From Candidatus Kaiserbacteria bacterium CG10_big_fil_rev_8_21_14_0_10_59_10 (lineage in GTDB: Bacteria > Patescibacteriota > Minisyncoccia > Phycocordibacterales > UBA2100): DNA of 48,208 bases. Position numbers and translations under genes: made by a program. Shown piece after piece: positions 12,372 to 30,988 of the stretch. The notes beneath the pieces are model-generated. The model saw only the letters and a program-made list of their open reading frames with translations. It ran no database searches and was not told the origin of the DNA. The stretch is from assembly GCA_002773285.1 (NCBI GenBank), contig PFBM01000014.1, positions 1-48,208 of the forward strand. Direction: 5' to 3'. Position 1 is the stretch's first letter; each line of letters starts with the position of its first letter.

Positions 12372-12408
12372 ACATACACTATATCGTACACACAAAAGAC
12401 CCCGATGG

Positions 12409-13578: not shown

Positions 13579-13632
13579 AATGTTCCGCACCACAGTATCA
13601 GAAGTCGCCCCTTTTGCAATTTCCGAACCGGG

Positions 13633-14559
13633 TCATTGACCCCGCAAGTGGTCAACTGTTTTTGCGACTCCCTCCTCTACGCTGTATCGCGGGGTCCATC
13701 GCAAATATTGTTTTGCACGCTTATTGGACAGAATACTGCGCTTCACCTCGCCTCGGATGGCAGGCTTAAAGACCAGTTTCGCCTTTTTGCCTATAAATCT
13801 CTCGATGAGCCGTATTACGCGGATGACGCTTGTTTCCACTCCGCCGCTGATATTACACACTAGGTAGTTCCTTTTTCTGCGGCTTAGCGCGCGTACGTTT
13901 GCCCGCGCAACATCCTCGACATAAACAAAATCGCGGGTCTGTTTGCCATTTCCGTTTATATATATTTTCTTGCCGTCACGCACCCGCTGTATGAATGACG
14001 TGACGGCGCCTACGTGCTCTTTCCGCTCGTTGCGAGGTCCGTATACATTACTGTAGCGAAGGATGACGACAGGCAAATCATGTACGTGATGGTAGTAATA
14101 AAGGTACTTTTCACCGGCGAGCTTTGCGACGCCATACGGTGAGATGGGATTTGCGGGCATGTCTTCGACGCATGGCAGTGTCTTTGCGTTCCCGTAGAGC
14201 GCACCGCCGGTCGACGAAAATACGAACTTTTTTACCGGATACTTCTTCGAAGCCAGCTCAAGAAGATGCACAAGCCCAAGAATGTTCGACGTAATGTCCG
14301 CGTACGGATCCGAGAGGGACTCGCGCATGTTTGTCTTTGCTGCCAAGTGACATATTGCATCAAACCTCTCCTTTTTGAATACGTGTTCCAGTTTAGGACT
14401 CGTGAGCGCAACCTTATAGCACTTCACTCCCTGGTGCACATTCATCCGGTGGCCCGACGAAAGGTCATCAACTATAACGACGCGGTGTCCACCTTTTAGG
14501 AGCGCGTCCACGACGTGCGAGCCGACGAACCCCGCCCCCCCTGTAACTAGTACTTTCAT
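13633..14559 (-). CDS. NAD-dependent nucleotide-sugar epimerase/dehydratase (UDP-glucose 4-epimerase-like)
   Basis: MKVLVTGGAGFVGSHVVDALLKGGHRVVIVDDLSSG...SPYGVAKLAGEKYLYYY: extended SDR GXXGXXG and YxxxK. Confidence 0.9.
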   Translation of the reverse strand: MKVLVTGGAGFVGSHVVDALLKGGHRVVIVDDLSSGHRMNVHQGVKCYKVALTSPKLEHVFKKERFDAICHLAAKTNMRESLSDPYADITSNILGLVHLLELASKKYPVKKFVFSSTGGALYGNAKTLPCVEDMPANPISPYGVAKLAGEKYLYYYHHVHDLPVVILRYSNVYGPRNERKEHVGAVTSFIQRVRDGKKIYINGNGKQTRDFVYVEDVARANVRALSRRKRNYLVCNISGGVETSVIRVIRLIERFIGKKAKLVFKPAIRGEVKRSILSNKRAKQYLRWTPRYSVEEGVAKTVDHLRGQ

Positions 14560-14560
14560 A

Positions 14561-15715
14561 TCAATATGTTATTCGTTTTCTCAATAACGTCCCGCCAAGC
14601 TGCACCGTGCGCAGCACGTGCGCGATGCGCTCGCCTGCCCTCCCCCTTCCGAACAGATAATGATTCCTGCATCTTTTCTTGAATGTCGGCGACGTCGCGA
14701 GATTAATCGCGGAAAAAACCTTGGCTGTGGTCGGCTCTTCGACCGCTATGATATTCGTATCGCGTACGCGTCCGTCCTGCCGATGACCGACGGTTATGGA
14801 CGGTAGGTTGAAATACGGTGTTTCCATGAGTCCGCTCGAAGAGTTCCCTACCATAACGCTGGCTCCTGCCATCAACCCCCAGAAGTCCTCCGCCTGTATG
14901 TTCTTGTGCACACTGAACTGGGGTACATTCTCGAATTCCTTAAGTGCCTTCAAGACGAGTGAGTACCCTTGATCGTTGCAGGGCCACACGATAAGCGTGC
15001 GCCATCCTTTTTTCTTAAGCGCCATGTATACGGCTCTTGCCTCTCGGTAAGAATGTTCTTCGTCCAATGTAGTCGGGTGCTGGATGCAGATACAGTACGG
15101 CTCGTCCGGCTTGATACCATATTTCTTCCTCACGATACGCTCCGGCGTATAATCACCCCTGACGACCAGATCGATATAGGTGGAACCGTAATCAAACACG
15201 CGCCACTCCTCTTCCCCGAGGTTCAGAATACGCTCATACGCGTCCCTATTCGCGGGGAAGTGCAGATGCGCCAGCTTTGTGACCGCATGAATGCGCACGC
15301 CGTCCCGATTTCCCGAGACATCGCCTCCCAGAATATGTGCAACGGGAATATTCAGCTCCAGGGCGGCCATACATGCCGCTAAAACTTCCCCGCGGTCGCC
15401 CAGGGTCACCAGTATGTCCGGCTTCGTACGGGCAAAAACTTCCAACAGCCCGTCCACCGTGCGCGCGAGGGCTTTTCCCCGCTCAAGATGAGAGTCCCCT
15501 TTTTGTTTTGTCGGAACTCGGACAGTTTTCCCGTACCATTTCTCCACCTCCTTGACCGTCCCGCCAAAAAAAGAAGAGAGGTGCATATCAGTGGCGATCG
15601 GCACAACCTTGACGGCCGGATCGCGCCGCAGTGACTGGACAAGCGTTATCATGGCGCCGGAGCCCCCACGCTTGCCTGTGAGTACGGCAATAACTCTTTT
15701 TTTTACTTTAGCCAT
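14561..15715 (-). CDS. UDP-N-acetylglucosamine 2-epimerase, hydrolysing type (NeuC/LegG-like)
   Basis: MAKVKKRVIAVLTGKRGGSGAMITLVQSL...PDILVTLGDRGEVLAACMAALELNIPVAHILGGDVSGNRDGVRIHAVTKLAHLHFPAN...VMVGNSSSGLMETPYFNLPSITVGHRQDGR. Confidence 0.9.
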   Translation of the reverse strand: MAKVKKRVIAVLTGKRGGSGAMITLVQSLRRDPAVKVVPIATDMHLSSFFGGTVKEVEKWYGKTVRVPTKQKGDSHLERGKALARTVDGLLEVFARTKPDILVTLGDRGEVLAACMAALELNIPVAHILGGDVSGNRDGVRIHAVTKLAHLHFPANRDAYERILNLGEEEWRVFDYGSTYIDLVVRGDYTPERIVRKKYGIKPDEPYCICIQHPTTLDEEHSYREARAVYMALKKKGWRTLIVWPCNDQGYSLVLKALKEFENVPQFSVHKNIQAEDFWGLMAGASVMVGNSSSGLMETPYFNLPSITVGHRQDGRVRDTNIIAVEEPTTAKVFSAINLATSPTFKKRCRNHYLFGRGRAGERIAHVLRTVQLGGTLLRKRITY

Positions 15716-15782
15716 AAACGGCAAACGTATACTACGCACTACGACGCAACCGCGCAACAAAACGGTATCGCTTGGATTTGCC

Positions 15783-16475
15783 TTACTTCTTCAACCGGAG
15801 AAAGGCCTCTATCCTCTCGAGATCATCCTTATAATCGATGTCAGAAGAGTACTTGGCGGCAACAATGATCGGGTACGTTTTGTTGCCCTCCATCTTCCCT
15901 TCTCGCATCACTGTTTCATAACTCGCGAGCCACAGATTCGCCGCGCGATAGAACTTCGGCCGGTCTTTTCCGGTCACCGTATAGTGGAGTTCGTTTTGCC
16001 AAAAGCGCACCGTGCCATCGGCTGCCATTTCCCGTACATTGTACGGATGGTTGACCGTATCGACTTCCGATACGTTGACGACCGAATCCGCGCCCTTCTC
16101 CTTCGCCAGCGCGACAGCTGCGTCTATCTGTTCCGGTTCGATAAGCGGCGTCGTCGGCTGAAGCAGGACGACGTAGTCGGCGCGGTAGCCATTTTCCTTC
16201 TCCAATTCCGTGAGGACATGCTTCACCGCTTCGATCACGGGGCTTGCGTCTGTCGCGAGCTCTGCAGGGCGTATGATGACCTCTGCACCATACTCTTTCG
16301 CGACCCGCGCTATTTCTTCGCTGTCCGTAGACACGATGACGCGTTCGACTTCTTTTGCCCGCTTCGCCGATTCTATCGGCCAGGCAACGAGCGGTTTTCC
16401 GCCGAGAAGCGCCACGTTCTTGCCGGGAAATCGCTTGCTTCCCCCGCGTGCAGGTATCACCGCAATGCAGTTCAT
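15783..16475 (-). CDS. CMP-nonulosonate (acylneuraminate) cytidylyltransferase
   Basis: MNCIAVIPARGGSKRFPGKNVALLGGKPLVAWPIESAKRAKEVERVIVSTDSEEIA...VLLQPTTPL: NeuA/PseF/LegF signature. Confidence 0.93.
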   Translation of the reverse strand: MNCIAVIPARGGSKRFPGKNVALLGGKPLVAWPIESAKRAKEVERVIVSTDSEEIARVAKEYGAEVIIRPAELATDASPVIEAVKHVLTELEKENGYRADYVVLLQPTTPLIEPEQIDAAVALAKEKGADSVVNVSEVDTVNHPYNVREMAADGTVRFWQNELHYTVTGKDRPKFYRAANLWLASYETVMREGKMEGNKTYPIIVAAKYSSDIDYKDDLERIEAFLRLKK

Positions 16476-17836
16476 AATGATAGTATCTCACGTATTCGGA
16501 AGGCAAGGCGTTCCGCACTTTTCCCGTCGGTAAAATGCACTTGCTCACGCACGAGCGTACGCCTCCCCTCGGTGTCGAGCGCGGGATTTGCATGGTAGGC
16601 GGCAACCGCATCAAGCAGCTCGGCCCGGTCTCGAACGACGCGCACAGCGCCTGTCGCAACGACATTGCTGAAGTGATTCGTGCAATAGTACCGCTCCACT
16701 GAAAGGTAGAACGGCAATTTCTTTTCTCCGTCGAACGCTATGCCTATAGAGGGGCGGTCGAGAATAGCCGCTTCCAGGACTAATGTCGAGGCCATCGTTA
16801 TGAGGGCATCGGCATGAAAGATGGAATTGACGAGGTGTTGTATGTCATCCGTTTCGAATTCCCACCCTCCGGCTGTGTCTTGGATACGTTTGCCCGGCAT
16901 ATCGACGATAACGTTCGAGAGTTCGCTCGCTCGCTCGCACCATGGATAATTCGGATGCGGACGGTAGAGGACCTTTGTGCGTGCATAGCGGGGATCGGAA
17001 CCCATCGCATTCGCTAGCGCCGAGAGAACTTCGCACTCACCGGGAAAAAGGTCCAGGCCCTCGCCGCCAAAGAGTACATAGTGCTCAGTCGGCGCAACCC
17101 CGATCGTACGGAGAAACTCATCTCGCGGCATGAGAATGTTTTTATGGAAGTAGAAATCGAACTGGGGAATGCCGCACACCGTTACCCGCTGCTCGGGGTA
17201 ATCCATGTACGAGACAGCTTCACGACGCAGTAACTCGTTCTGCACCAAGAGGTGGTCCGGATGCACCGCTAAAAAGCACTTTGATGTAATACTGTCCCAT
17301 GACTTAGTCATACCGACAATGCGCACACCCTTTCTGCGTGCTGCTTTCATGAGCCCGAGATCCATGCGATCGTACAGCGTCGTGGCAAAAACGAGATCCG
17401 GCTTATGCGTATCAATGATGGGCATATACGCCGAGCAGGGCGAGAATGAGTAGAGAAAGCGCAGGAAGCGCCGCCATGGCCGCACATGGCCGAGGAGCCA
17501 CATGGCACGCGTCGCACACAGCCAGAACCATCGCACGAAACCTCGCTTTGAATAGAACGCATGCATTTGCCGGTTGTAAATGGTTGTTGTGGGAATACTC
17601 TGGCGCAACACGCGATTTGCCCGCTCTTCGAATTTTTTATAACGATCAGTGGGCGCGGACTCTACAATAACGTCTGTGCGGCCCATGAATTCCTTTTTGT
17701 AATACTCCTCGCGATATGGCGGAACGAGTAGGATGACTCGCACTCCCCCACCTGAGAGCAGGGCCGCCAGGAACCCCGTCCGAAGTAGCCCGTAGGAAAC
17801 CGCTCCGTTCGGGATGGTTACAATGACGGTATGCAT
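16472..17836 (-). CDS. Putative GT-B-like glycan biosynthesis protein (unassigned family)
   Basis: 454 aa; GIPQFDFYF, HYVLFGGEGLDLFPGE, KVLYRPHPNYPW, DALITMASTLVLEAAILDRPSIGIAF, typical of capsule/CDP-glycerol-type GT-B folds. ATGA overlap with the cytidylyltransferase gene. Confidence 0.55.
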   Translation of the reverse strand: MHTVIVTIPNGAVSYGLLRTGFLAALLSGGGVRVILLVPPYREEYYKKEFMGRTDVIVESAPTDRYKKFEERANRVLRQSIPTTTIYNRQMHAFYSKRGFVRWFWLCATRAMWLLGHVRPWRRFLRFLYSFSPCSAYMPIIDTHKPDLVFATTLYDRMDLGLMKAARRKGVRIVGMTKSWDSITSKCFLAVHPDHLLVQNELLRREAVSYMDYPEQRVTVCGIPQFDFYFHKNILMPRDEFLRTIGVAPTEHYVLFGGEGLDLFPGECEVLSALANAMGSDPRYARTKVLYRPHPNYPWCERASELSNVIVDMPGKRIQDTAGGWEFETDDIQHLVNSIFHADALITMASTLVLEAAILDRPSIGIAFDGEKKLPFYLSVERYYCTNHFSNVVATGAVRVVRDRAELLDAVAAYHANPALDTEGRRTLVREQVHFTDGKSAERLAFRIREILSL

Positions 17837-17846
17837 CCAGCCAATA

Positions 17847-19202
17847 CTAGCCCATTTTCCCGAGCTTCTCTATCGCATTCGCGGTGCGCTCCGTAGACCT
17901 GCCGTCAAACATGCCGAGACGCGCACGGTCGTCTCGCCGCGCCTCTCTTTCCTCGCCGGAAAGGACAAATCCCCGTGCCAGCTGCGCCTCGAGTTCTGGA
18001 AGCGTTCGCGCGCGCCGCACGGAAGCGTACGGTTGATAAAATTCGTCGAAGCTCCGAAGCCGGAGCTTATAGGCAATAACGGGCGCGTCCGTTGCGAGTG
18101 CGGCCATCACGAGAGAAGATGTGAACATGCATACAGCGTCCGCAATCGCTGTAAGCCGATATGCGTCCCACTGTGTGTGCACAAGCACCACGTTGCGAGT
18201 TTTGAGTACGCGAAGATACTCATTCCACTCACCCTCAGGAATGCCCGGGTGAAGCTTGATGGCCAGCGTGTGGTTGTCCGGTACAAATGTCTCTATGATG
18301 CCAAACACGCTCCTCAACTCCTCGCGGATCGCTGGAAATTCCGCTGGATCGTACGTTCCCCTGAAATGTGTACCGAGTACGAGAAAGATATTTTCGGCAC
18401 TCGCGTTGAACTCTCTCTCGAATGCGCGTTTCGTTCCGCTGCGATCCCGGCATATCCGAGCCACGATATCGTGCGGCGGAAACCCAACGACTTCCATGCA
18501 CCTTCTCTCCAAACCTTGCACGGCATTTTCCTCGAACTGTGCATTGGAGTTTACGAGTATTTTTGCGATGGCGGAGTTGGAACCGCGAACCCAAGGATTT
18601 TTCGGCAAGAGCGTCCTCCAGAAGAGGACGAACGGAAGGAGCGCGCGAGGTTGATAAAAATGCGCTTCTTTCCCATCGTTCATCCGTACGTTCGCCGAGT
18701 ACATCCTGTGTATTATCAAACGCGCGAGCCGACGGAACGCAGTCAAGTGCGGCACGATGGACGACTTGTCTTCCTTGAGCGCGTCGAGGCGCATAAGCGT
18801 CTCGACGGGCAGAAGAATAGCGGGAATAGTGAGCTTCGATGCAGCGCGGAGAGCTGCCAGGGGATAAAAAAGTGCACGATCATCGGTCACGACGAACACT
18901 TCCGCGCCGCTTCGCTTCAAGTATGCCTTCACGTACCGGTATGATACCCATGCCGAAATAAGCGTGCCGAAAAAGGGTATGTAGCGACCGGCTCGCACTG
19001 CCCGTGCGTGCCAACCGCCGTTAACAAAGCCGTCGATCTGCACGTCTGCGCCATTGAAGTCGCTTACGCGCCTGAAATATTCTTCGCTCGGCTCACGCAG
19101 TATGAGCACGCAGCAGGAGTGCCCCCGCCTTTTGAGTTCATCTCGCACGCAATCAAACATCCGTACGTAGTGCCAATTATGAGCGAAGAAACAGACTACC
19201 AT
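17847..19202 (-). CDS. Putative GT-B-like glycosyltransferase (unassigned family)
   Basis: 451 aa; FVPDNHTLAIKLHPGIPEGEWNEYL, DAVCMFTSSLVMAALATDAPVIAYKL. Confidence 0.5.
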   Translation of the reverse strand: MVVCFFAHNWHYVRMFDCVRDELKRRGHSCCVLILREPSEEYFRRVSDFNGADVQIDGFVNGGWHARAVRAGRYIPFFGTLISAWVSYRYVKAYLKRSGAEVFVVTDDRALFYPLAALRAASKLTIPAILLPVETLMRLDALKEDKSSIVPHLTAFRRLARLIIHRMYSANVRMNDGKEAHFYQPRALLPFVLFWRTLLPKNPWVRGSNSAIAKILVNSNAQFEENAVQGLERRCMEVVGFPPHDIVARICRDRSGTKRAFEREFNASAENIFLVLGTHFRGTYDPAEFPAIREELRSVFGIIETFVPDNHTLAIKLHPGIPEGEWNEYLRVLKTRNVVLVHTQWDAYRLTAIADAVCMFTSSLVMAALATDAPVIAYKLRLRSFDEFYQPYASVRRARTLPELEAQLARGFVLSGEEREARRDDRARLGMFDGRSTERTANAIEKLGKMG

Positions 19203-19213
19203 GAGCGCGGGGT

Positions 19214-21034
19214 TTACGAGTGGTACATGCGTGCGAAATAGGAAGAAGGATCCGTAAGGAGCTGCTCCGGCGCACCTGATTCGACGAGCTTGCCTCTCTC
19301 CAGTACGAGGATGGTGTCGGCTCGCATAACGGTCGAAAGGCGGTGCGCGATGACAAAAACGGTAACATGACCCCTGAGAGCGAAGATCGACTCCTGAATA
19401 AGACGCTCTGACTCGTTATCAAGAGCGCTTGTCGCTTCGTCTAAAATGAGGATGTCCGGCTTTCCGGCCAGCGCGCGCGCGAGAACGAGCCGCTGACGTT
19501 GGCCACCGGAAAGCAATACGCCGCGATCGCCGATCCGCGTTCCGAGGCCGTCTGGCAGCGCCTCAACGACGTCAAGGACGTTCGCCTGCTTGAGCGCCTC
19601 AATAACATCCTCGCGCGAAACGGTCGGTCGATAGAAGCGTATGTTCTCGAAGACCGTATCGTTGAGCAAGAAGCTGTCCTGTGGCACGTACCCTATGTGC
19701 GAACGCCACTCATCAAGACGGATTTCGCGGATCGACACGCCATCAACGAGTATATCTCCCGCAGTGGGAGTGAACAGGCGAAGAATAAGGTCCGCAATGG
19801 ACGTCTTGCCGGCACCCGAGGAACCCACCAGACCGACAAGTGTACCCTTAGGGATACGGAACGACAAACCGGAAAGGACCGGTTTGTCTCCATCATACGC
19901 AAAGTACACATTGTCAAACGTGAGCTCGCCACTGAAGCGGAAATTTCTCCCGCTTGTCACGCTTTCTTCGCGACTTTGGCGAAGCCGTTTTTTAAAGCCG
20001 ACAACACTCTCGGCGAACGGAACGAACTGATTGATGGAATGGAGCGCGCCTTGGCCGGACTGAAGATAAAGAAAAATCTTTTGTATCAGGTACAAAAGCG
20101 CCACGAAAACGGCGATGTTCAAATTGCCGGTTACATACAGAAAGCCAAAAACGATAAGAATGAATATCAAGCTGACGGGCTGGATAATAACCGTTCCTAG
20201 AGCCTGCACGACCGCATTCCTTGTAAAGAGCGATTGGAACCTGGAAAGATAACTCTCGCCGACGTCCAAAACGGCAGTCTCCGCCCCGGCTGCTTTGACG
20301 CTCTTTAAGCCGCCGAGGTGCTCGACCATTAAGTGCGAAAACTCCTTTTCTGCATCACTCGTCTCCTCGCCTATAGACTTCGTCTTTTGCACTAGAGGAC
20401 GTAACACGAGAAGCAATATCCCACCGGCGAGAGCCGTAACGACGGTTATTAGCGGTGATAGAAGAAAGGCGATGACGAAGTACACGATGAATCCGCTCCA
20501 TGATTGGATGAATTGGGCGATGACCTCAAGAAGCCCCTGCGTGCGCCTTATGTCCCAATAGATGGTATTTTGGAGGTACCCGGCTTTTTGCTGCAACAGA
20601 AAACTCCATTGAGAACGCAAGGTTGCGGTAAGTAAGTGCGACATTTCCTTTTTCATAAAGTCGGCGGCGATGTAGGCGCGCAGGTAGGAAAAGGCGATGA
20701 GCGCGAACGCTCTTAGAGTAAAAACAGAAATTATGAGAAAGAAGAGGTACCTGAACTTGAACGGGACGCCGAAGAACGCGAACACTGCCTGGATACTTGA
20801 TGTGACAAAATCACCGGGAAGCGTTGCGTTCCCCATAAGAAAAGAGAGAAGCGGTACGACGGCGCTTATTCCTATACCGTCGAGGAAGGCGCTTACGAAG
20901 CCGAGCGCCGTGAGCGCCGCAATGTGTTTTCGGTAGCCGCCGAACGTCTCCACTAGAACCCGCGCGGAGCCGTCTTTGTAGAATTTCGTAACTGTACTGC
21001 TGTCGAGATTCGCCATGGTATTACTGTACGACAT
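19214..21034 (-). CDS. ABC transporter, fused permease and ATPase (MsbA/PglK-like flippase)
   Basis: N-terminal TM domain; GLVGSSGAGKTSIADLILRLF (Walker A), LLSGGQRQRLVLARALAGKPDILILDEATSALD. Confidence 0.93.
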   Translation of the reverse strand: MSYSNTMANLDSSTVTKFYKDGSARVLVETFGGYRKHIAALTALGFVSAFLDGIGISAVVPLLSFLMGNATLPGDFVTSSIQAVFAFFGVPFKFRYLFFLIISVFTLRAFALIAFSYLRAYIAADFMKKEMSHLLTATLRSQWSFLLQQKAGYLQNTIYWDIRRTQGLLEVIAQFIQSWSGFIVYFVIAFLLSPLITVVTALAGGILLLVLRPLVQKTKSIGEETSDAEKEFSHLMVEHLGGLKSVKAAGAETAVLDVGESYLSRFQSLFTRNAVVQALGTVIIQPVSLIFILIVFGFLYVTGNLNIAVFVALLYLIQKIFLYLQSGQGALHSINQFVPFAESVVGFKKRLRQSREESVTSGRNFRFSGELTFDNVYFAYDGDKPVLSGLSFRIPKGTLVGLVGSSGAGKTSIADLILRLFTPTAGDILVDGVSIREIRLDEWRSHIGYVPQDSFLLNDTVFENIRFYRPTVSREDVIEALKQANVLDVVEALPDGLGTRIGDRGVLLSGGQRQRLVLARALAGKPDILILDEATSALDNESERLIQESIFALRGHVTVFVIAHRLSTVMRADTILVLERGKLVESGAPEQLLTDPSSYFARMYHS

Positions 21035-22103
21035 CTCCCTCAGAGAGAGGCGTTCCGCGTTCGATATCGTGCGCCGCTCGCCTCCCTATCACATCGTCGT
21101 ACCGATTTGGGGAAAGGCCGTACGCCGGGCGAATAACGCGGACGTTCTTGGGGGTGAACACGTCCCCTTTCTTGATATCGGAGACCGCGAACAGAGAGCG
21201 GCGCAGTTTTTTGTAATTTTTCTCGTCCTCGCCTGCCGGGCCGTATCGCACGCGGCCGAGCAGGACTTCTGCACGCCGTATCCCGCGAACCATTTCTGCA
21301 AATTCATCCGGTTCTACGGAAAATCGAGAGTCCGGGCCTCCGGTACTGCGGTCCAACATGAAGTGTTTCTCGACGATAGAAGCGCCCGCGTATACGGACG
21401 CAACAGGGGCCTCAATACCTGCATTATTATCCGAGAAACCGCTGACTACATCGAAGCGCTCTGCGATATCTCGAATTGTGCGCAGATTCATACACTCCGG
21501 CCTCGGCTCATCCGCGTATGCCGTCACGCAATGCAATAATGCGACCTCTCTTGCGCCCGCTTCCCGCACGGTTCTCACGGCTTCCTCGACCTCATGGAGC
21601 TCCGCAAACCCGATAGAAAGAATCACGGGTTTTCCGGTAGACGCGACTTTTTTCAGGAGCGGTATGTCCGTTGCCTCATACGAGGCGATCTTGTAGCATG
21701 GCACATCCATCTCTTCCAAAAAATCAACGGCCGTCTCGTCGAACGGAGTCGAGAAAAAAGCGATGCCCAATTCCTCAGCGAGTTCTTTTAGCTTTGGCTG
21801 CCACTCCCACGGCGTGTAAGCCGTGGCGTACAGATCATAAAGATTTGATTTTTTCCACGACTCCGGCGTGTTTTCCCCCTCCAAAAAAAACCACTTCTTA
21901 TCCGAATCGATCGTCATCGTGTCCGGTGTGTAGGTCTGGAACTTCACGGCATCCGCTCCAGCCGCCTTCGCCGCTTTCACGAGCGCTTCCGCCTCCTCGT
22001 ATTTTTGATGGTGGTTGGCTGAGATTTCGGCAACTATAAAACACGGCTCTCCCGGGCCGATCTTCCTGCCGGAAACAACAAGGGGCACCATATCCACAGC
22101 CAT
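21021..22103 (-). CDS. pseI: Pseudaminic acid synthase (NeuB family)
   Basis: CFIVAEISANHHQKYEEAEALVKAAKAAGADAVKFQTYTPDTMTID...FFSTPFDETAVDFLEEMDVPCYKIASYE...SGFSDNNAG...GASIVEKHFMLDRSTGGPDSRFS. Confidence 0.9.
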   Translation of the reverse strand: MAVDMVPLVVSGRKIGPGEPCFIVAEISANHHQKYEEAEALVKAAKAAGADAVKFQTYTPDTMTIDSDKKWFFLEGENTPESWKKSNLYDLYATAYTPWEWQPKLKELAEELGIAFFSTPFDETAVDFLEEMDVPCYKIASYEATDIPLLKKVASTGKPVILSIGFAELHEVEEAVRTVREAGAREVALLHCVTAYADEPRPECMNLRTIRDIAERFDVVSGFSDNNAGIEAPVASVYAGASIVEKHFMLDRSTGGPDSRFSVEPDEFAEMVRGIRRAEVLLGRVRYGPAGEDEKNYKKLRRSLFAVSDIKKGDVFTPKNVRVIRPAYGLSPNRYDDVIGRRAAHDIERGTPLSEGDVVQ

Positions 22104-22128: not shown

Positions 22129-22770
22129 TTATTTCTCCTTTTTGTAGATCTTTAGTTCGTAGGTATGGCCGCGATGTCTGAAAAAAGCAGGGTACCGCTC
22201 ATTGTCCACGACGCGCAGCAAGTTGAATTGCTCCGCAATGGATTTATCCGGGTCGAGCTCGCTGTCTTTCGGCGTTCGGCGTCGATAGAACGTTTCGGTT
22301 CCTTTCTGTTTCCTCCCCCCTTTCGGCGGAAATGTCTCCAGGAATTCTAGGACAAGAGCTATCGTCAGTTCGCCTTGTCTCTCACGAAGCTCATCTACTA
22401 ATTCATGTCCTTCGAAATGTAACGTGCCTTCCGCGTACACGTCGCCGCTATCAACCGCCTCCCCCGCCTCAAATAGCGTGACGGGAATGTCTGTCCTCCC
22501 CTCGAGTATCTGCCACGTGAGCGGCGACCAGCCTTTCCCCTCGGGCAGAGCGCTTCCGTGCACGACGATATTGTGGGTGTTTCTTGCCCGTATATCAGCA
22601 GGCACCATTTTCTCGCAACTTAAGAAAACTGCGCAGTCGCCCTCTGGCATTGCTTCGGCGCTATTAATGAGTACGACATCGTGCCCTCGTTTCTTCAATT
22701 CCGACGATAACTTCTTGGCATACGGAACTATCCAACTTTTAGGATTGTCAACAAGGAGGGCAATTTTCAT
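22129..22770 (-). CDS. Formyltransferase-like protein (sugar N-formyltransferase candidate)
   Basis: Formyl_trans-like: HNIVVHGSALPEGKGWSPLTWQILEGRTDIPVTLFEAGEAVDSGDVYAEGTLHFEGHEL; C-terminal RVVDNERYPAFFRHRGHTYELKIY. Confidence 0.8.
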   Translation of the reverse strand: MKIALLVDNPKSWIVPYAKKLSSELKKRGHDVVLINSAEAMPEGDCAVFLSCEKMVPADIRARNTHNIVVHGSALPEGKGWSPLTWQILEGRTDIPVTLFEAGEAVDSGDVYAEGTLHFEGHELVDELRERQGELTIALVLEFLETFPPKGGRKQKGTETFYRRRTPKDSELDPDKSIAEQFNLLRVVDNERYPAFFRHRGHTYELKIYKKEK

Positions 22771-23453
22771 ACTCTACGGTACACGAGCTCGAACGCCTCG
22801 GCGGCGGGAAAGCCCGCTTGGCCACCCCTCACCCTCGCGAGCGCCTCCAAATACTCCGCGGAACGCGGATGCGGAAAGCTTCGGATCTCGGACCTGTACG
22901 CGCGCATGGCCGCGATCTTCTTTTTGAGCTGAGCTTCTGTAAGCCCGACGAACACCTGCGGCCGGAATAACGGGCGTGTGAAGTTCCATTCCGTAGAGGA
23001 CGGTACTTCGAACGCACGCACCTCCATCACGCTGCCGTCTTTCGCTGGACGAACTGCGGTGAGAACAGCATCAGATGTTATACGATGGTCCACATTTACA
23101 TCGGAGCCATGGTGAGTATAGACGATGTGCGGCTGCATCTCCTTCATAACCGCCTCGATACCGTGCACCACGGAAAGAAGCGGGACGCTGTCAAAGGCGT
23201 TGTCAGGCAAGCTCTTCTGCACCGGCGCGCCAGCTCCGAGGAACTTGAGTGCCTTCTGAGAGCATGCATAGAGCTTCTTTTGCTCGCGTTCAATGCGCTC
23301 GCGCGGCACTCCGGCGCGTGACGATATGTCTTCGCCGAGAATAAGGACGCGTACGTTGTCCTCCTCCTCAATGTGGCGCGCGATCGCGCCTCCCGCCCCG
23401 AGTATTTCATCATCGGGATGCGCAGCTATAACGAGAATGTTTTGTTTCGACAT
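22767..23453 (-). CDS. PIG-L/LmbE family N-deacetylase
   Basis: NILVIAAHPDDEILGAGGAIARH...VYTHHGSDVNVDHRITSDAVLTAVRP. Confidence 0.93.
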   Translation of the reverse strand: MSKQNILVIAAHPDDEILGAGGAIARHIEEEDNVRVLILGEDISSRAGVPRERIEREQKKLYACSQKALKFLGAGAPVQKSLPDNAFDSVPLLSVVHGIEAVMKEMQPHIVYTHHGSDVNVDHRITSDAVLTAVRPAKDGSVMEVRAFEVPSSTEWNFTRPLFRPQVFVGLTEAQLKKKIAAMRAYRSEIRSFPHPRSAEYLEALARVRGGQAGFPAAEAFELVYRRV

Positions 23454-23456
23454 ACG

Positions 23457-24134
23457 TTAGGTTATTTCGGCGTCAGCAGATACGCTTCCCTTTTTAAGGC
23501 GAGCGTTGCGCAACGTTATGCGCCTATCGCCGCACTCTACGAAGGCCGGAGGGTATTCGGGCGCATCTAGCATCCTAATAAAATCATATGCTTGGCGCAT
23601 TGTCAGTCGAGAAGGAAGTTTGCTCATCTCGGGCGTTCGGCGCTTGAACGTAACAGCTTTTCCTCTCTGCGGTTTGGGCCGCAACTGCTTTGCCACTATG
23701 TCCGTCATCATCGCAAAAGAAAGCGCCGATGCCTCCTTATAGATATCGTGCGCGCTTCCATGTCCAATGTTGAGTGCGCGCTTCATGTATATTGGCCCGG
23801 TATCAAGGCCGCCATCAACCCGAAGTGCTGATATCTTCGTTCTGTATATGCCGCGTGATAAGAGGTTCTGCAAAGGCGAGCCGCCTCGCCCGAACGGTAG
23901 ATCAGTCATGTGAAAGACGACGCACTCGAATTGCTCATGCACGCTTTTTGGGATGATCCACGACCAGTGCGGAAAAAAAATATAGCGCGGATTCAGCTTG
24001 CGCAAACGCTCCGGCGTCAGGTCTTCTTTTCGAGATATAAGGACCTTTCGGCAGCCCTGTGGGGGGTGCCATCGCCGGAATTGCTTCATATTCCATGGTC
24101 GTATGGCGGCAACGACAAGGGTTTCTTTGAGCAT
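23457..24134 (-). CDS. Second formyltransferase-like protein
   Basis: FFPHWSWIIPKSVHEQFECVVFHMTDLPFGRGGSPLQNLLSRGIYRTKISALRVDGGLDTGPIYMKRALNIG; C-terminal RMLDAPEYPPAFVECGDRRITLRNARL. Confidence 0.82.
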   Translation of the reverse strand: MLKETLVVAAIRPWNMKQFRRWHPPQGCRKVLISRKEDLTPERLRKLNPRYIFFPHWSWIIPKSVHEQFECVVFHMTDLPFGRGGSPLQNLLSRGIYRTKISALRVDGGLDTGPIYMKRALNIGHGSAHDIYKEASALSFAMMTDIVAKQLRPKPQRGKAVTFKRRTPEMSKLPSRLTMRQAYDFIRMLDAPEYPPAFVECGDRRITLRNARLKKGSVSADAEIT

Positions 24135-24139
24135 AACCC

Positions 24140-24817
24140 TTACGAGAGCATATAAGAGCGGATTTGTCCAATCTCTTGCGCCCGCTCCGGGTACCTACCG
24201 CGAAGCGCCTGGAGAGCCCGTTCTACAAGATCTTCATCTCCCGTAATACTGTCTTTGCTCCGATGGTACACAAAGACAGGTCTGGAGACGTGCATTCCCC
24301 GCCAGCGCCCCCACGTCCGAAAAAGAATGTCGTACTCTGGAAAGATCGTGTCGTAGGAGTATCCGCCTTCCACAAAAAAACTCTCGCGTCGCCACGCGAA
24401 TGCTCCTGCGGGTGCTGCGAGAGGACTCTTCGGGCGCACGAGTTTTGTATCTCCCTTGTATTCCTCAAAATAATCACCATATACATACGCGACATCGTGT
24501 TGGAATCCCGAAGCAAAGGAGGAGATGGCTTCCGGAGTCGCCTCATCATCGGCATCCAAAAAAATGAGGATTTCTCCGCGTGCTTCCTGTGCACCAGTTT
24601 TCCCCGCCCCGGCAACACCGGCATTTTCCTGGCGAATGAGACGGATCAGGGGCGAGCGGAAGGTAGACACCACCGCACATGTACTGTCCGTCGACCCGTC
24701 GTCGACGACCACTATTTCGTATGACTCTTTGGGAAAGTCCTGCTCGAGCGCGCTTTCCACCGTACGACGGATGGTTGATTCTGCGTTGTGTGCACGAATG
24801 ACAAACGAGGCGCGCAT
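24140..24817 (-). CDS. Glycosyltransferase family 2
   Basis: MRASFVIRAHNAESTIRRTVESALEQDFPKESYEIVVVDDGSTDST...GEILIFLDADDEA. Confidence 0.93.
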   Translation of the reverse strand: MRASFVIRAHNAESTIRRTVESALEQDFPKESYEIVVVDDGSTDSTCAVVSTFRSPLIRLIRQENAGVAGAGKTGAQEARGEILIFLDADDEATPEAISSFASGFQHDVAYVYGDYFEEYKGDTKLVRPKSPLAAPAGAFAWRRESFFVEGGYSYDTIFPEYDILFRTWGRWRGMHVSRPVFVYHRSKDSITGDEDLVERALQALRGRYPERAQEIGQIRSYMLS

Positions 24818-24825
24818 AGTACGGA

Positions 24826-25983
24826 TTACCGCTGTGCCTCTAGTGAATAATCCCCGTACTTCTTGACAAGACTATGGTCGGGAGCCCGCTGCAGCGAACC
24901 ATCCGAATTCACTTCGAACAACATCTTATCGGTGAATGAATCCACTATCGTATCGAATTCTTCGGGAGTCATGTTGAAAAACTCAAGAAACTCAGAAATA
25001 GCGACTTTTGGCCACTTGCCGTCGTACTCGGTCACGAGCTTGACCGCCTCATCGCGTGTAATGCGACCATTTCTGACGTCCAGGCATGCATGATCCGTCG
25101 CGCGGCCGAACCCGAATTTCACGAACTTCAAATAATCGTGAACAGCAACGATGGCGTCATCGAGATTCTCGTAGTTCGTATACGTTCCCTCCACCGGCCC
25201 GTCCTCCTTCACCGAGAAACCGTATTTCTGCATGAGCTGCACCTGCTGCCGCGCGTCCCATTTGAAATAGTACCCAAGGAAGGCACCGAAGAGGCCGGCC
25301 TCTTCGAGCTCTTTATCGCTCGGATAAAAGTACGAGACAAGATCTTCTTTGGTGATGCCCTCAACCCCGATCATATCCTCGACGCGAAGGCCGAGGAGGC
25401 CTCCGAACTCTTCGAGCCATCTGCGGTCAAGCACGTTCTTCATGCGAGCCGCTTTCGGTCCTCCGTATTCAAGTTGTGAATTCTCTCCCCAGAGAACGAG
25501 AGGGATCCTGAACTGAACCGCCACGCGTACCGAAAAGGTAAAAATACCGATATGGTTCGGCCACTCGTGGTCACCCACCTGCTTGAACGCATAGAGGCAC
25601 ATTTTCTTATATATTTCCGGATTCTTCTTAAACTCGAGTAGGTCACCGAATTGCCGAATGTTCTCAAGGTTTTTTCTTCCCAGTTCGTTGCGCAATGTCG
25701 CCTCGAAATTTACCATGAGCGGATTCAGACCGTACTTGCGAGCCATGTATGCCTGGTAGTGACTGTCCTTCCCGCCTGAGATAGGAATGACGCAGTCGTA
25801 ATTCCCGCCGCTTTTATTCTTGAAGCGCGAGACGAGCTCGCGGAATTCCGTTTCGCGCGCTTCCCAATCTATGGTGCCTTTCATCTCCGCAGAACGGCAC
25901 GCATCACATACACCCTCTTCATCGAACGAGAGGTCCGGCTTGGTATTCGGCATCACGCATTTGGTGCAGTACCGGAAAGACAT
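24826..25983 (-). CDS. N-acetyl sugar amidotransferase (WbpG/PseA-like)
   Basis: MSFRYCTKCVMPNTKPDLSFDEEGVCDACRSAE...YDCVIPISGGKDSHYQAYMARKYGLNPLMV...NHIGIFTFSVRVAVQFRIPLVLWGENSQLEYGG. Confidence 0.93.
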   Translation of the reverse strand: MSFRYCTKCVMPNTKPDLSFDEEGVCDACRSAEMKGTIDWEARETEFRELVSRFKNKSGGNYDCVIPISGGKDSHYQAYMARKYGLNPLMVNFEATLRNELGRKNLENIRQFGDLLEFKKNPEIYKKMCLYAFKQVGDHEWPNHIGIFTFSVRVAVQFRIPLVLWGENSQLEYGGPKAARMKNVLDRRWLEEFGGLLGLRVEDMIGVEGITKEDLVSYFYPSDKELEEAGLFGAFLGYYFKWDARQQVQLMQKYGFSVKEDGPVEGTYTNYENLDDAIVAVHDYLKFVKFGFGRATDHACLDVRNGRITRDEAVKLVTEYDGKWPKVAISEFLEFFNMTPEEFDTIVDSFTDKMLFEVNSDGSLQRAPDHSLVKKYGDYSLEAQR

Positions 25984-25984
25984 A

Positions 25985-26635
25985 TCAACGACGTTTCTCA
26001 AGGAGATACATTTGGCTCACGTTCTTTTCGTCCGTCATTCGATATTTCCTTTCCTTAACAACTTTCAGGTCCGCGAACGTGTCCGCGAACAATCCACAGA
26101 AGTCAGCTTTCCAAAGAAGGTCGCTCGTTCCTCGATACGTTACTTCAGTATATTCAGGCGAATAATACTCGAATCCCCAGATGTAATGACTCGATACTCT
26201 GTGCATCTCGGAAATGATGCTCTTAATATCGTCCGGGGAAATATGGATGAGAACGCCCGATGTGTACACGAGATCGAACGCTCCATCACTAAAGGGCACA
26301 TCAAAGCCAGACCCGAGGATGACCTCGACTTCGGGATGGAGCTTTTTCGCCTGTGACACGGCGTACTCATTTATCTCGAGACCCGTTAGGTTCGTGAATC
26401 CCATGCGGCGGAGGAATTCAAGCTGCACGCCAATGTTCGCCCCCACCTCCAGTATCTTTAAGTCCCGCGGAATATCCGCAAGAAACTCTTCATTCATCGC
26501 GGTACGCGACACATCGTAGTCCTTAAGATACAGACGGTCAAACTCCTCGGGAGATTGCGGGTTGCGATCCGTGTACTTTTTCCCCATCTCCCCCGCCCAC
26601 TCAAAGAGCTGCTTTGTGACCTTCGTTTTGCCCAT
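25985..26635 (-). CDS. SAM-dependent methyltransferase, pseudaminic-acid-biosynthesis-associated methylase type
   Basis: MSRTAMNEEFLADIPRDLKILEVGANIGVQLEFLRRMGFTNLTGLEINEYAV (context ...YDVSRTAMNEEFL...) resembles the Pse-associated methylase family; neighbours are pse genes. Confidence 0.8.
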   Translation of the reverse strand: MGKTKVTKQLFEWAGEMGKKYTDRNPQSPEEFDRLYLKDYDVSRTAMNEEFLADIPRDLKILEVGANIGVQLEFLRRMGFTNLTGLEINEYAVSQAKKLHPEVEVILGSGFDVPFSDGAFDLVYTSGVLIHISPDDIKSIISEMHRVSSHYIWGFEYYSPEYTEVTYRGTSDLLWKADFCGLFADTFADLKVVKERKYRMTDEKNVSQMYLLEKRR

Positions 26636-26645
26636 GCGGCAAATC

Positions 26646-27395
26646 CTACCCGATTCGAGCGGGAAATCCAACGTCCGCGAGCGCTCGCTTTATCACATTC
26701 GGCGTTACCTGCGTGTATTGGAACATACTTGCGGCAGCCACCGCCGACGCGCCAGCCTGTACGGCTTTAACGCAGTCGCCGGGGATACCCGCGCCGCCTA
26801 GCGCGATGACCGGGATGCGCACCGCATCAGCGACCGCTCGGATAAGCTCTGTATCGTATCCCTCCATCGTGCCATCAAGATCAATCGAATTAAGTAATAT
26901 CTCACCGGCACCTAAATCTTCGACCTCCTTGGCCCACGATACCGCATCCTTACCGCCATCAGCGGAACCGCCATGCGTGAATACGCGCCAGCCGGCATGT
27001 ACCATCCGCACGTCGATTGAAACAACAACACACTGACTCCCGTAGCGACGCGATGCTTCTGCGATAAGCCGGGGGCATTCAAGTACAGCCGAATTCATGG
27101 CCACCTTATCGGCGCCGGCTGAGAGCAGGAGCTGCACGTCCTCTACCGTTTTTACGCCACCACCGAGCGTTACCGGCATGAAGCACTCCTTGGTAACCGC
27201 TTCAACGATCCATCGCTCTATGCCGCGCTTCCCCGCGTCCAGATCGAGAAAAATGAGTTCGTCCACGTCCCGGGCGTTAAAAACCCTGACGGCCGCTACG
27301 TAGTTACCGATATTTCGATGATCGCGGAATCGGACGCTCTTCACGAGCTTGTGGTCCTTTATGGTCAGACATGGAATGACGCGAACTTTAAGCAT
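26646..27395 (-). CDS. HisF-like amidation protein (WbuZ/HisF2)
   Basis: MLKVRVIPCLTIKDHKLVKSVRFRDHRNIGNYVAAVRVFNARDVDELIFLDLDA...VTLGGGVKTVEDVQLLLSAGADKVAMNSAVLE; adjacent to hisH- and wbpG-like genes; no other his genes seen. Confidence 0.92.
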   Translation of the reverse strand: MLKVRVIPCLTIKDHKLVKSVRFRDHRNIGNYVAAVRVFNARDVDELIFLDLDAGKRGIERWIVEAVTKECFMPVTLGGGVKTVEDVQLLLSAGADKVAMNSAVLECPRLIAEASRRYGSQCVVVSIDVRMVHAGWRVFTHGGSADGGKDAVSWAKEVEDLGAGEILLNSIDLDGTMEGYDTELIRAVADAVRIPVIALGGAGIPGDCVKAVQAGASAVAAASMFQYTQVTPNVIKRALADVGFPARIG

Positions 27396-27999
27396 AGGAA
27401 ATGAAATTCTTAAGGACAGCGAGTCCTCCCTTCTGGCTTTTTTCGGGATGAAATTGCGTGCCGAAAATGTTTCCCTTCTCCACCGCAACCGGGAACGTCT
27501 CGCCATACGCACAGGTACCGACAACGATGTTCGGATCGTTCGGACGCAATACATACGAGTGTACGAAGTAAAAATGACGAGATGGAACGCTCTTGAAAAG
27601 TATCGAGCTTTCAATCGGGGCAACCTCATTCCATCCGATATGCGGAAGCCTGTACGCATCTTCATCGACTCGTAGGCGCTCAACCCGACCCTCGATCCAA
27701 CCTAAACCGGGTGCGCCGCCGGCCTCTTCTCCATAGGTCGCGAGAAACTGCATGCCGAGACAAATGCCAAGAAAGGGCTTTCCCCTTACAAGTACCTCGC
27801 GTTCCATATCCGAGAACCCGGGGCACGACTTCAGTCGCCGCATTCCGTCAGGGAACGCGCCAACGCCGGGCAGAATGATATGAGACGCTTTCTCGAAATC
27901 TGCTCCGTGCGCTGTAACGATCCCTTCCGCGCCTAGAAAACGCAGCGCATTCCGTACGGAACCGACGTTCCCCATACCATAATCGACTATCGCTATCAT
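27388..27999 (-). CDS. HisH-like glutamine amidotransferase (WbuY/HisH2)
   Basis: MIAIVDYGMGNVGSVRNALRFLGAE...HIILPGVGAFPDGM...KPFLGICLGMQFLA...GTQFHPEKSQKGG. Confidence 0.95.
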   Translation of the reverse strand: MIAIVDYGMGNVGSVRNALRFLGAEGIVTAHGADFEKASHIILPGVGAFPDGMRRLKSCPGFSDMEREVLVRGKPFLGICLGMQFLATYGEEAGGAPGLGWIEGRVERLRVDEDAYRLPHIGWNEVAPIESSILFKSVPSRHFYFVHSYVLRPNDPNIVVGTCAYGETFPVAVEKGNIFGTQFHPEKSQKGGLAVLKNFISYA

Positions 28000-28757
28000 G
28001 CGCGTATGCCTTTTGTAGGGTATTCCGCGTCACGAAACGCGTTGAGGGACACCATCTCCGGGTGAGCATCGAGGTAGGCAAGCACATCGGGAACATGAAG
28101 GATGTCCCCTTTCTTCTCATAGAAACGCTCGTACAGATGAGAGAGCAGTTCGTAATCTTCCTCATAGTCGAGCGTCAAGCGGAACTGCGGCCGCGCATAG
28201 ATGTCTCTCGCGACGAGTTGCGGTCCGATCACGAAGTCCTCTTTTTTATTCTCGTGTATATACGGAGTCACATGCTCTCGCTCGTATGGGTTTTTTGCTT
28301 CTCGATGAGCCCTCTCAAGCGCAGCGAAGGAGAAAATCTCGCAATCCAGCCCGCGCGGGAAGGTACGGGTGTTCGGCGCAATATTGCTTTGATAATCATA
28401 CCTACCCGCACCGAAGTTCTGAACAAGTTCAGAGAGGACGCTTGGGTCAATGAGAGGGCAGTCAGAGGTGATTCGGACGACGGGGTCAAATGGACCCGTT
28501 TTTGCCGCTTCGAAGTAGCGAGAAAGCACGTCGTCTTGAGAGCCCCGAAAATGCGTATAGCCATGCTCCGTGCAAAAATCCACTATCTCATCGTCTTCGG
28601 GTGCAACAGACGTCGCGACAATGACGCTGTCTATCCCTGGTGCCCGTTTTACTCGTTCAACAACGTGAAAAAGCGCTGCGTATCCGGCAAGTGGCAGAAG
28701 TACCTTCCCCGGCAGTCTGGTCGAGCTCATCCGCGCCTGAATGATAGCTGCAATCAT
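27996..28757 (-). CDS. SpsF/PseF-like cytidylyltransferase family protein
   Basis: MIAAIIQARMSSTRLPGKVLLPLAGYAALFHVVERVKRAPGIDSVIVATSVAPEDDEIVDFC...VVRITSDCPLIDPSVL. Confidence 0.88.
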   Translation of the reverse strand: MIAAIIQARMSSTRLPGKVLLPLAGYAALFHVVERVKRAPGIDSVIVATSVAPEDDEIVDFCTEHGYTHFRGSQDDVLSRYFEAAKTGPFDPVVRITSDCPLIDPSVLSELVQNFGAGRYDYQSNIAPNTRTFPRGLDCEIFSFAALERAHREAKNPYEREHVTPYIHENKKEDFVIGPQLVARDIYARPQFRLTLDYEEDYELLSHLYERFYEKKGDILHVPDVLAYLDAHPEMVSLNAFRDAEYPTKGIRA

Positions 28758-28775: not shown

Positions 28776-29909
28776 TTAGAGGACTTTTCGTAGTTCACGA
28801 ATAACCCTGTCCTGTTCGCGGAGGGTGAGATCAGGAAAAAGCGGGATTGAGATCTCGGAGGCATAGAAGCTCTCCGCGCGCGGACATAGCTCCTTTCCGT
28901 AGCCAAGTTTTTGATAGTACGGATGGAGGTATACGGGCAGATAGTGCACCTGCACGGCGATACCGACGTTACGAAGGGCGTTAAAGACTCTCGCGCGCGC
29001 GGACGGCTCGGCGACACGAATAGGAAACAGATGCCACGCCGAGTGCGCATCTTTACTGTCCGAGGGCGGCAGGATGAGGCCAGGAATGCTCGAGGCCAGC
29101 TTTTTGTAGCGATGTGCGAGCGCGCGGCGTTTCGCGATGTGCGCGCGAAGCCGCTTCAGTTGCGAGAGTCCGAGTGCCGCCTGAATGTCAGTGAGCCGAT
29201 AGTTGTAGCCGAGGGACTGCATCTCCTGATGCCACGCAGGCGCGTGTTTTTTCTTAAAAAGCGTCCGGTCCTTCACGATACCGTGGTGACGGAACGCGAG
29301 GAGTTTTATATAAAACTCCTTGCTGTTCGTCGCAATAGCGCCTCCCTCACCCGTCGTGATGGACTTCACCGGATGAAAACTGAACATCGTCATGTCGGCG
29401 AGCGACCCGACGGGGCGACCCTTATATGACGCGCCGAGCGAATGTGCAGCGTCCGCGATGAGAAGAAGCTTGTGTTTTTTTGCGATACGCCGCAGTGCAG
29501 TATAGTCCGCCGGGCGGCCCGCGTAGTCAACGGATATGATAGATCTCGTCCTCTTTGTTATCTTCCTCTCAACGTCGTGTGGATCAATGTTCCCTGTTTC
29601 GATGTCCACATCCGCGAATACTGGCTTGGCGCCAACATACAAAACTGCGTTCGCGCTCGCCGCGAAGGTGAGCGCCGGCACGATAACCTCGTCGCCCTTG
29701 CCGAGCCCCGCTGCAGCGCACGCGCCGTGTAGCGCCGCCGTACCTGAAGAAAAAACCGCGCAGTAACGCGTACCCGCTGTGCGTGCGAGCTCTTTTTCAA
29801 ACGCTGGAATGGCCGGACCCTGCGTGAGAAAGTCAGAGCGTAACACGTTCACAACTGCGCGAATATCCGCGGCTGTAACAGATTGACACGAATACGGAAT
29901 GGATCTCAC
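28776..29909 (-). CDS. pseC: PLP-dependent aminotransferase (UDP-4-amino-4,6-dideoxy-N-acetyl-beta-L-altrosamine transaminase, PseC-like)
   Basis: MRSIPYSCQSVTAADIRAVVNVLRSDFLTQGPAIPAFEKELARTAGTRYCAVFSSGTAALHGACAAAGLGKGDEVIVPALTFAASANAVLYVGAKPVFADVD...MFSFHPVKSITTGEGGAI: DegT family with PseC-like N-terminus. Confidence 0.92.
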   Translation of the reverse strand: MRSIPYSCQSVTAADIRAVVNVLRSDFLTQGPAIPAFEKELARTAGTRYCAVFSSGTAALHGACAAAGLGKGDEVIVPALTFAASANAVLYVGAKPVFADVDIETGNIDPHDVERKITKRTRSIISVDYAGRPADYTALRRIAKKHKLLLIADAAHSLGASYKGRPVGSLADMTMFSFHPVKSITTGEGGAIATNSKEFYIKLLAFRHHGIVKDRTLFKKKHAPAWHQEMQSLGYNYRLTDIQAALGLSQLKRLRAHIAKRRALAHRYKKLASSIPGLILPPSDSKDAHSAWHLFPIRVAEPSARARVFNALRNVGIAVQVHYLPVYLHPYYQKLGYGKELCPRAESFYASEISIPLFPDLTLREQDRVIRELRKVL

Positions 29910-30988
29910 GTTGATTTCCGCGCTTTTGCACGCCCGGGCGATTTGACGCGCGTACGCGCGCTCTTTTTCATGCGGCTCTGTTTCTTCCCGCTACCGCCCT
30001 CGGAACCTCCCGCGAGAATGCGCGGAGCATGTTCGACGGAACGCAGAAAGCGCGGGTTATCGCTCGCGTATATGAAATCTACCCCGACCGGCGCGCCTTG
30101 TACGGGCGGCTCGTCGTCGAACTGGAGTTGTTCCGGGGAGATAACGTACATGCTTCCTATGTCGCGCGTTCTGCCCGCCTCGTGCTGCGTAATGAGCGTT
30201 TCGTGTAGTTTCTCTCCGGGGCGTATCCCTACGACCCTCACGGAGCAATCCGGTGCGAGACATTTGATAATGTCAACAACTTTCACGCTCTCCATTTTCG
30301 GTACGAATATTTCTCCGCCGTGCATTTGCTCTAGCGCCTCGATCACGTAATCCATCACGCGCTCAATGCGCAGCCAAAAGCGCGTCATACGATCGTCGGT
30401 AAGCGTTATCGTGCCGCTCGAACGCTGCTTTTCGACCACCTCAAGAAGCGAACCGCGGCTGCCGAGGATGTTGCCATAGCGCATAACGGAAAAGCGCGGC
30501 TTTTGCGCCCCGCTCCTTCGGTAGACATTTGCTGCTATGGTGAGCCGCTCCGCACAAAGCTTCGTCGCACCGTATAGATTCACCGGGTGAACCGCCTTGT
30601 CTGAGGAGGTAAAAAGTACTCTTGCGACTCCTGCGTCAAGTGCCGCCTCAATGACATTTTGCGTGCCGAGCACGTTCGTTTTTACGGCCTCCATCGGGTT
30701 GTATTCAAGCGCAGGCACCTGTTTCAAGGCAGCGGCGTGCACGACGAAATCCACGTCCCGAAACGCGCGCATGAGCCGTTCTTTATCGCGCACGTCACCC
30801 AAGAAAAAGCGCAAGCGCTCGTCGTCCTCGAAAGCCCGGCGCAGCTCCGACTGCTTGAACTCGTCGCGGCTGAACACGATGATGCGGCTTACTTTCGTCT
30901 GCAGGAGACGCGCGATGAAGGCATAACCGAACGTACCGGTGCCGCCTGTTATTAATACAGATTTCTCCGCCCAAAATGAGGAATTCAT
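29906..30988 (-). CDS. pseB: UDP-N-acetylglucosamine 4,6-dehydratase, inverting (PseB-like), with basic C-terminal tail
   Basis: VLITGGTGTFGYAFIARLLQTKVSRIIVFSRDEFKQSELRRAF...VVHAAALKQVPALEYNPMEAVKTNVLGTQNVI...SSDKAVHPVNLYGATKLCAE; tail GSGKKQSRMKKSARTRVKSPGRAKARKST. Confidence 0.93.
   Translation of the reverse strand: MNSSFWAEKSVLITGGTGTFGYAFIARLLQTKVSRIIVFSRDEFKQSELRRAFEDDERLRFFLGDVRDKERLMRAFRDVDFVVHAAALKQVPALEYNPMEAVKTNVLGTQNVIEAALDAGVARVLFTSSDKAVHPVNLYGATKLCAERLTIAANVYRRSGAQKPRFSVMRYGNILGSRGSLLEVVEKQRSSGTITLTDDRMTRFWLRIERVMDYVIEALEQMHGGEIFVPKMESVKVVDIIKCLAPDCSVRVVGIRPGEKLHETLITQHEAGRTRDIGSMYVISPEQLQFDDEPPVQGAPVGVDFIYASDNPRFLRSVEHAPRILAGGSEGGSGKKQSRMKKSARTRVKSPGRAKARKST

Follow-up and report, generated by a model that had tools for sequence, protein, structure and literature searches.

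The closest described route is the PseB-C-H-G-I-F pathway, by which Helicobacter and Campylobacter make the pseudaminic acid (Pse) derivative Pse5Ac7Ac. The hexose C4 nitrogen becomes the C7 nitrogen of the nonulosonic acid, and the hexose C2 nitrogen becomes its C5 nitrogen. An N-formyltransferase named PseJ has reportedly been found for Pse5Ac7Fo in Anoxybacillus. Formylated and 5-N-acylated nonulosonic acids are already known. Pse with a 7-N-formyl (7-formamido) group occurs, for example, in Pseudoalteromonas distincta KMM 638 (PMC7281560), where formyl sits on the nitrogen that we predict for FT2 below, whereas the C5 nitrogen is still acetylated there and no PIG-L step is implied. The 5-N-formyl-legionaminic acid of Halorubrum sp. 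PV6 carries formyl on the GlcNAc-derived C5 nitrogen, but belongs to the legionaminic series, and the available text of its description names a candidate formyltransferase and no deacetylase (PMC6137143). Psychrobacter marincola makes Pse with 5-N-(R)-lactoyl and 7-N-acetyl groups (PMC7281560); its non-acetyl group on the C5 nitrogen, albeit a hydroxyacyl one, also calls for acyl exchange or an equivalent. The C5 nitrogen arrives acetylated from UDP-GlcNAc, and in the open-licence literature searched we found no description of its exchange or of a PIG-L acyl-swap cassette.

The window analyzed here is the whole 48,208-nucleotide stretch of contig PFBM01000014.1 from Candidatus Kaiserbacteria bacterium CG10_big_fil_rev_8_21_14_0_10_59_10, whose genome comprises 760 kb in 24 contigs and is 98.95% complete. 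Like the canonical pathway, it has PseB, PseC, PseI and PseF homologues in one cluster, but instead of PseH and PseG there are two formyltransferases (FT1 and FT2) and a de-N-acetylase (PIG-L). The best explanation, which we favor with moderate confidence, is that the cluster directs the synthesis of a pseudaminic acid bearing formyl groups: FT2 would act on the 4-amine, PIG-L and FT1 would exchange the group on the C5 nitrogen, and the product would be CMP-Pse5Fo7Fo.

Results

The FT1, PIG-L and FT2 genes are contiguous on the minus strand and transcribed in that order, with 3 bp between FT1 and PIG-L and a 4-bp overlap between PIG-L and FT2. They belong to a minus-strand run of pseB, pseC, pseF, hisH-like, hisF-like, methyltransferase, wbuX, GT2, FT1, PIG-L, FT2 and pseI genes (Table 1). 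Coordinates and Pfam/NCBIfam matches bear out the initial annotation, which had described three near-overlapping genes beside pseI and the amidotransferase genes.

Table 1. Features of the window and of comparison loci. Pfam curated cut-offs were used for FT1, PIG-L and FT2, and NCBIfam cut-offs for the pse-type neighbors. L-numbers denote comparison loci; all other coordinates are those of the window.
Feature	Position	Strand	Basis
PseI, pseudaminic acid synthase	21021-22103	-	TIGR03586 431.8 bits, over cut-off (340)
FT2, predicted sugar N-formyltransferase, PseG-fused in many other genomes	22129-22770	-	213 aa; PF00551
PIG-L/LmbE-type de-N-acetylase	22767-23453	-	228 aa; PF02585; AHPDDE...DVNVDH
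FT1, predicted sugar N-formyltransferase of 1ZGH/PF21553 family, partner of PIG-L	23457-24134	-	225 aa; PF00551 + PF21553
Family-2-like glycosyltransferase (GT2)	24140-24817	-	sequence; marks insertion boundary relative to L006
WbuX/PseA-type N-acetyl sugar amidotransferase	24826-25983	-	TIGR03573 386.5 bits, over cut-off
Putative SAM-dependent methyltransferase	25985-26635	-	sequence; 70% identity to L006 counterpart
WbuZ/HisF2-like ammonia-using subunit	26646-27395	-	TIGR03572 289.4 bits, just below cut-off (299.7)
HisH-like glutaminase subunit	27388-27999	-	TIGR01855 227.4 bits, over cut-off
PseF/SpsF-type CMP-sugar cytidylyltransferase	27996-28757	-	PF02348 110 bits
PseC, 4-aminotransferase	28776-29909	-	TIGR03588 470.5 bits, over cut-off (423.5)
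PseB-like UDP-GlcNAc 4,6-dehydratase (inverting)	29906-30988	-	TIGR03589 406.3 bits, 1.5 bits short of cut-off (407.75)
NeuB	11346-12371		
NeuC	14561-15715		
NeuA	15783-16475		
Large protein	16472-17836		58% identity to L006 counterpart
Large protein	17847-19202		45% identity to L006 counterpart
DUF218-like gene next to FT2	L005, L007, L008, L009, L031, L139		
TIM-barrel gene next to FT2	L012 9216-10001; L038 2794-3558; L137 8998-9819		

The absence of PseH and PseG from the window, noted in the initial annotation, extends to the whole genome, in which profile searches gave no match to TIGR03585 (PseH) or TIGR03590 (PseG). PseG likewise had no match in the genomes of L004-L010, L016 and L031, which are mostly candidate-phylum bacteria with FT2 clusters. 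Since no PseG-type UDP-sugar hydrolase was found, the linear pathway has a gap, and formylation does not explain it. In PseG-less pseudaminic acid clusters, a DUF218-like gene or a sugar-isomerase-like TIM-barrel gene adjoins FT2, in most cases immediately on its 5' side, in the slot that PseG occupies elsewhere; these genes are candidate non-orthologous replacements for PseG. DUF218 is not present in the window genome and was rejected as a substitute there, and the TIM-barrel candidate had no match in that genome in a search run without a positive control. Nor did we adopt NeuC as the missing hydrolase, since hydrolysing 2-epimerases invert C2 and the gene sits with a second NeuB/NeuA set.

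Both FT1 and FT2 have the formyltransferase catalytic-domain fold. FT1 matches PF00551 (29.9 bits) and PF21553 (Formyl_trans_C_2, 58.9 bits) above the curated cut-offs and is 47% identical to PDB 1ZGH across 218 aligned positions (E 4e-67). FT2 matches PF00551 (29.6 bits, above the curated cut-off), and its AF2 model (pLDDT 96.2) has 1ZGH, Rv3404c and ArnA as nearest folds. The C-terminal module that the initial annotation had seen in both proteins (RMLDAPEYPPAF in FT1, RVVDNERYPAFF in FT2) has its R, D, Y and P invariant within each family. The genome has a third PF00551 protein on a separate contig, an ordinary Met-tRNA formyltransferase that retains NMH; neither FT1 nor FT2 is therefore the housekeeping enzyme, and that identity was rejected for both. 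This bears on 1ZGH itself, a Clostridium thermocellum protein annotated as a Met-tRNA formyltransferase: it carries the conserved FT1 motifs, the FT1 family resides in sugar clusters, and 1ZGH, as a member of that family, is probably a mislabelled sugar N-formyltransferase.

The initial annotation had held that loss of the catalytic Asn, His or Asp would speak against its proposal. The His and Asp are invariant, as H75 and D111 among 30 FT1 homologues (in which D78 and R83 are invariant too) and as H71 and D107 among 73 FT2 homologues, but the Asn, two residues ahead of the His, is missing from both, and N-x-H reads V-x-H in the window proteins and throughout both families. As judged from these alignments, the valine is a family trait rather than damage to the window copy, and catalysis must therefore differ in detail from that of canonical formyltransferases. 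The same substitution could be taken to mean that one or both proteins are inactive, or bind a sugar without transferring formyl, so that PIG-L would leave a free amine. We consider this very unlikely, given that decaying enzymes would not keep an invariant His and Asp and long conserved motifs in many phyla, and that a different formyltransferase (FT3), which neighbors PIG-L in locus L021, also lacks the Asn yet gives strong matches to PF00551 and PF02911. FT1 and FT2 are predicted sugar N-formyltransferases, with 10-formyl-THF and an amino sugar nucleotide as presumed substrates.

PIG-L, the sole PF02585 protein of the genome (72.8 bits, above the curated cut-off), has both the LmbE fold and the LmbE/PIG-L signature, in which HXDD and a further His provide the metal site and general base (PMC4101496). 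Its metal-site residues H12, D14, D15 and D122-H123 are invariant in the family alignment. The nearest folds to its AF2 model (pLDDT 94.8) are BshB (TM 0.77), diacetylchitobiose deacetylase and MshB, all of which deacetylate 2-acetamido sugars and share the HPDD...DH metal-site motif. The window protein differs from them in belonging to a distinct subfamily with invariant NxDH and PHxR and near-invariant SxTEW. A bacillithiol-type BshB identity was rejected on scores far below the NCBIfam cut-offs and on the recurring cluster context. At locus L136, a member of the same subfamily (ORF from 7439) adjoins NeuC, with NeuA one gene off, so the subfamily may also serve a sugar of the legionaminic or neuraminic type.

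The FT1/PIG-L/FT2 triad is not special to the window and recurs across bacteria and archaea. Comparative loci were located through FT2, which gave 73 loci from many bacterial phyla and some archaea (72 with enough FT2 to count, related genomes among them not being independent), and most are pseB/C/F/I clusters. Many genomes encode FT2 as a fusion with PseG (e.g. L020, L055, L067, L072 and L073), PseG-GNAT-FT2 fusions also occur (e.g. L034, L036, L048, L056 and L063), and FT2 is present in clusters without PIG-L, 16 of 19 such genomes having no PIG-L of the window type elsewhere either. Its fusion to PseG and its occurrence without PIG-L suggest that FT2 belongs with the PseG/PseH step, where it most likely formylates the 4-amine, the future C7 nitrogen, in lieu of PseH.

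The general acid proposed for PseH is Tyr138 (PMC4363471), and the aligned position is Phe in most PseG-linked GNAT domains, which suggests that acetyl transfer has been lost in them. PseG-linked PseH-like GNATs with this Phe were seen at L032, L034, L036, L043, L048, L050, L056, L062, L063, L064, L065 and L070. Among FT2 loci, the presence of a PseH-like GNAT does not separate those with and without PIG-L (p 0.8), and three loci (L042, L045 and L058) hold such a GNAT besides FT2, FT1 and PIG-L, more acyltransferases than two amines explain.

FT1, for its part, is tied to PIG-L. The two genes occur together in 27 of 29 FT1 loci and lie directly side by side in 20 of these 27. Of the 24 well-covered FT1 loci, those flanked by 3 kb or more in both directions, 23 hold PIG-L (Fisher p 5.5e-4 among FT2-bearing loci). 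The exceptions are L004, where PIG-L lies on another contig of the genome, and L075, in whose genome no PIG-L was seen. PIG-L occurs without FT1 at 19 loci. FT1 was found in 0 of 26 genomes whose locus lacks it, by a search run without a positive control. Of 380 genomes drawn evenly from the phylum, 2 encode window-type FT1, 7 window-type PIG-L and 4 FT2; the 2 with FT1 carry PIG-L right beside it. One of these, G178, carries pseB-pseC-FT1-PIG-L-pseF and no FT2, so FT1 and PIG-L do not depend on FT2 for their pairing. The sample includes a second member of the window's genus, G280, in which none of the three genes is seen at the thresholds used, and the module is therefore accessory.

The nearest syntenic cluster, on another Kaiserbacteria contig (L006), keeps the order of the window genes, with identities of 44-78%. 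There, GT2 (58% identical to that of the window) directly precedes FT2, and exactly FT1 and PIG-L are missing, which makes this pair an optional unit at the GT2-FT2 junction. Neither FT1 nor window-type PIG-L was found elsewhere in the L006 genome, the FT1 search again having no positive control.

These distributions bear on the assignment of the two formyltransferases. Both belong to PF00551, and the position that each modifies does not follow from homology; G178 holds FT1 and PIG-L beside pseB and pseC without FT2, and some loci combine a PseH-like GNAT with FT2 and PIG-L. FT1 might therefore formylate the 4-amine for PseH, leaving FT2 to re-formylate the 2-amine exposed by PIG-L. Such an exchange of roles is improbable in our judgment, as FT1 almost never occurs without PIG-L, whereas FT2 is fused to PseG and resides in PIG-L-free loci where only the 4-amine is free. 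The initial annotation had posed replacement of PseH and acetyl-to-formyl exchange as two options; comparative genomics lends support to both, not as alternatives but as the work of separate enzymes, FT2 in the first case and PIG-L with FT1 in the second.

At PIG-L loci without FT1, there is usually an ATP-grasp protein that matches PF15632/PF02655 and has a PylC-like N-terminal domain (PylC-like_N). Well-covered PIG-L loci carry FT1 only (23), ATP-grasp only (11), neither (5) or both (0) (p 2.6e-6), and ATP-grasp never occurs without PIG-L (0/15). L021, with its FT3, is one of the five loci with neither. On the PIG-L tree, FT1 labels require at least 13 changes and ATP-grasp labels at least 10 (counting only branches with strong support, at least 7 and 6, respectively); with the labels so interspersed, relatedness alone does not explain the pattern, although a sign test restricted to independent pairs gives no more than a suggestive result (median p 0.06). 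G178, which lies outside the counted set, combines the two partners in a single region, with FT1 and PIG-L on one strand and an ATP-grasp gene on the other. FT1 and PIG-L would thus appear to form an add-on cassette, in which an ATP-grasp ligase elsewhere follows PIG-L in FT1's place.

Discussion

From this gene content we infer the following substrates, modified nitrogens and order of steps. PseB and PseC would yield UDP-4-amino-4,6-dideoxy-L-AltNAc, whose 4-amine would then be formylated by FT2 in place of PseH. PIG-L would hydrolyse the 2-acetamido group inherited from UDP-GlcNAc, and FT1 would formylate the amine so exposed; since the only N-acetyl group present is at C2, PIG-L fits that position and FT1 the amine freed there. 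This stage could take place on the UDP-sugar, the free hexose or the CMP-sugar. UDP would be lost through a putative hydrolase, and PseI and PseF would complete CMP-Pse5Fo7Fo; amidination of this product by the WbuX/HisH/HisF set may follow.

The window also contains a second nonulosonic acid set (11346-16475) of NeuB, NeuC, NeuA and two epimerase-like genes, parts of which are kept in L006. With glycosyltransferases and this set encoded in the same region, the target of PIG-L and FT1 could conceivably be a different amino sugar in the glycan, such as one of the GlcNAc or bacillosamine type, their place in the cluster being incidental. Several 2-acetamido sugars serve as substrates for relatives of PIG-L, and in genome G206 a PIG-L of the window type adjoins NeuC in a cluster with NeuA. 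FT1 and PIG-L are nevertheless found beside PseI, PseF or PseC in many phyla, irrespective of the other sugar genes around them, and we regard action on a different sugar as unlikely.

Beyond this locus, in bacteria and archaea alike, the PIG-L subfamily may be the constant part of a cassette with exchangeable components that swaps the C5-N acyl group of nonulosonic acids, a reading that we hold to be about evenly balanced. The amine inherited from GlcNAc would be unmasked by PIG-L, and a swappable partner would load the new group: FT1 a formyl group, as in the Pse5Fo7Fo proposed here, an ATP-grasp ligase an amino- or hydroxy-acyl group, or another formyltransferase in their place. The 5-N-lactoyl Pse of P. 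marincola is perhaps a product of the ATP-grasp version. At L005 (9035-11654), an ATP-grasp ligase gene, a gene that resembles 2-hydroxyacid dehydrogenases (assigned by eye from sequence) and PIG-L lie side by side, a trio that would suit a 5-N-hydroxyacyl nonulosonic acid.

Such a cassette provides named genes with predictions attached, namely a C7-N formyl group for FT2, a C5-N formyl group for PIG-L with FT1, and a C5-N amino- or hydroxy-acyl group for PIG-L with ATP-grasp. It would allow the C5 and C7 groups to be predicted from sequence and would correct the label of a solved structure, 1ZGH. Cultivable organisms are among the loci, for example Maribacter, Fodinibius and Propionispira.

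Beside the cluster, the window encodes two large proteins that are also present in L006 (Table 1). One matches PF04464 and the other has no Pfam family match; both are candidate nonulosonic acid transferases.
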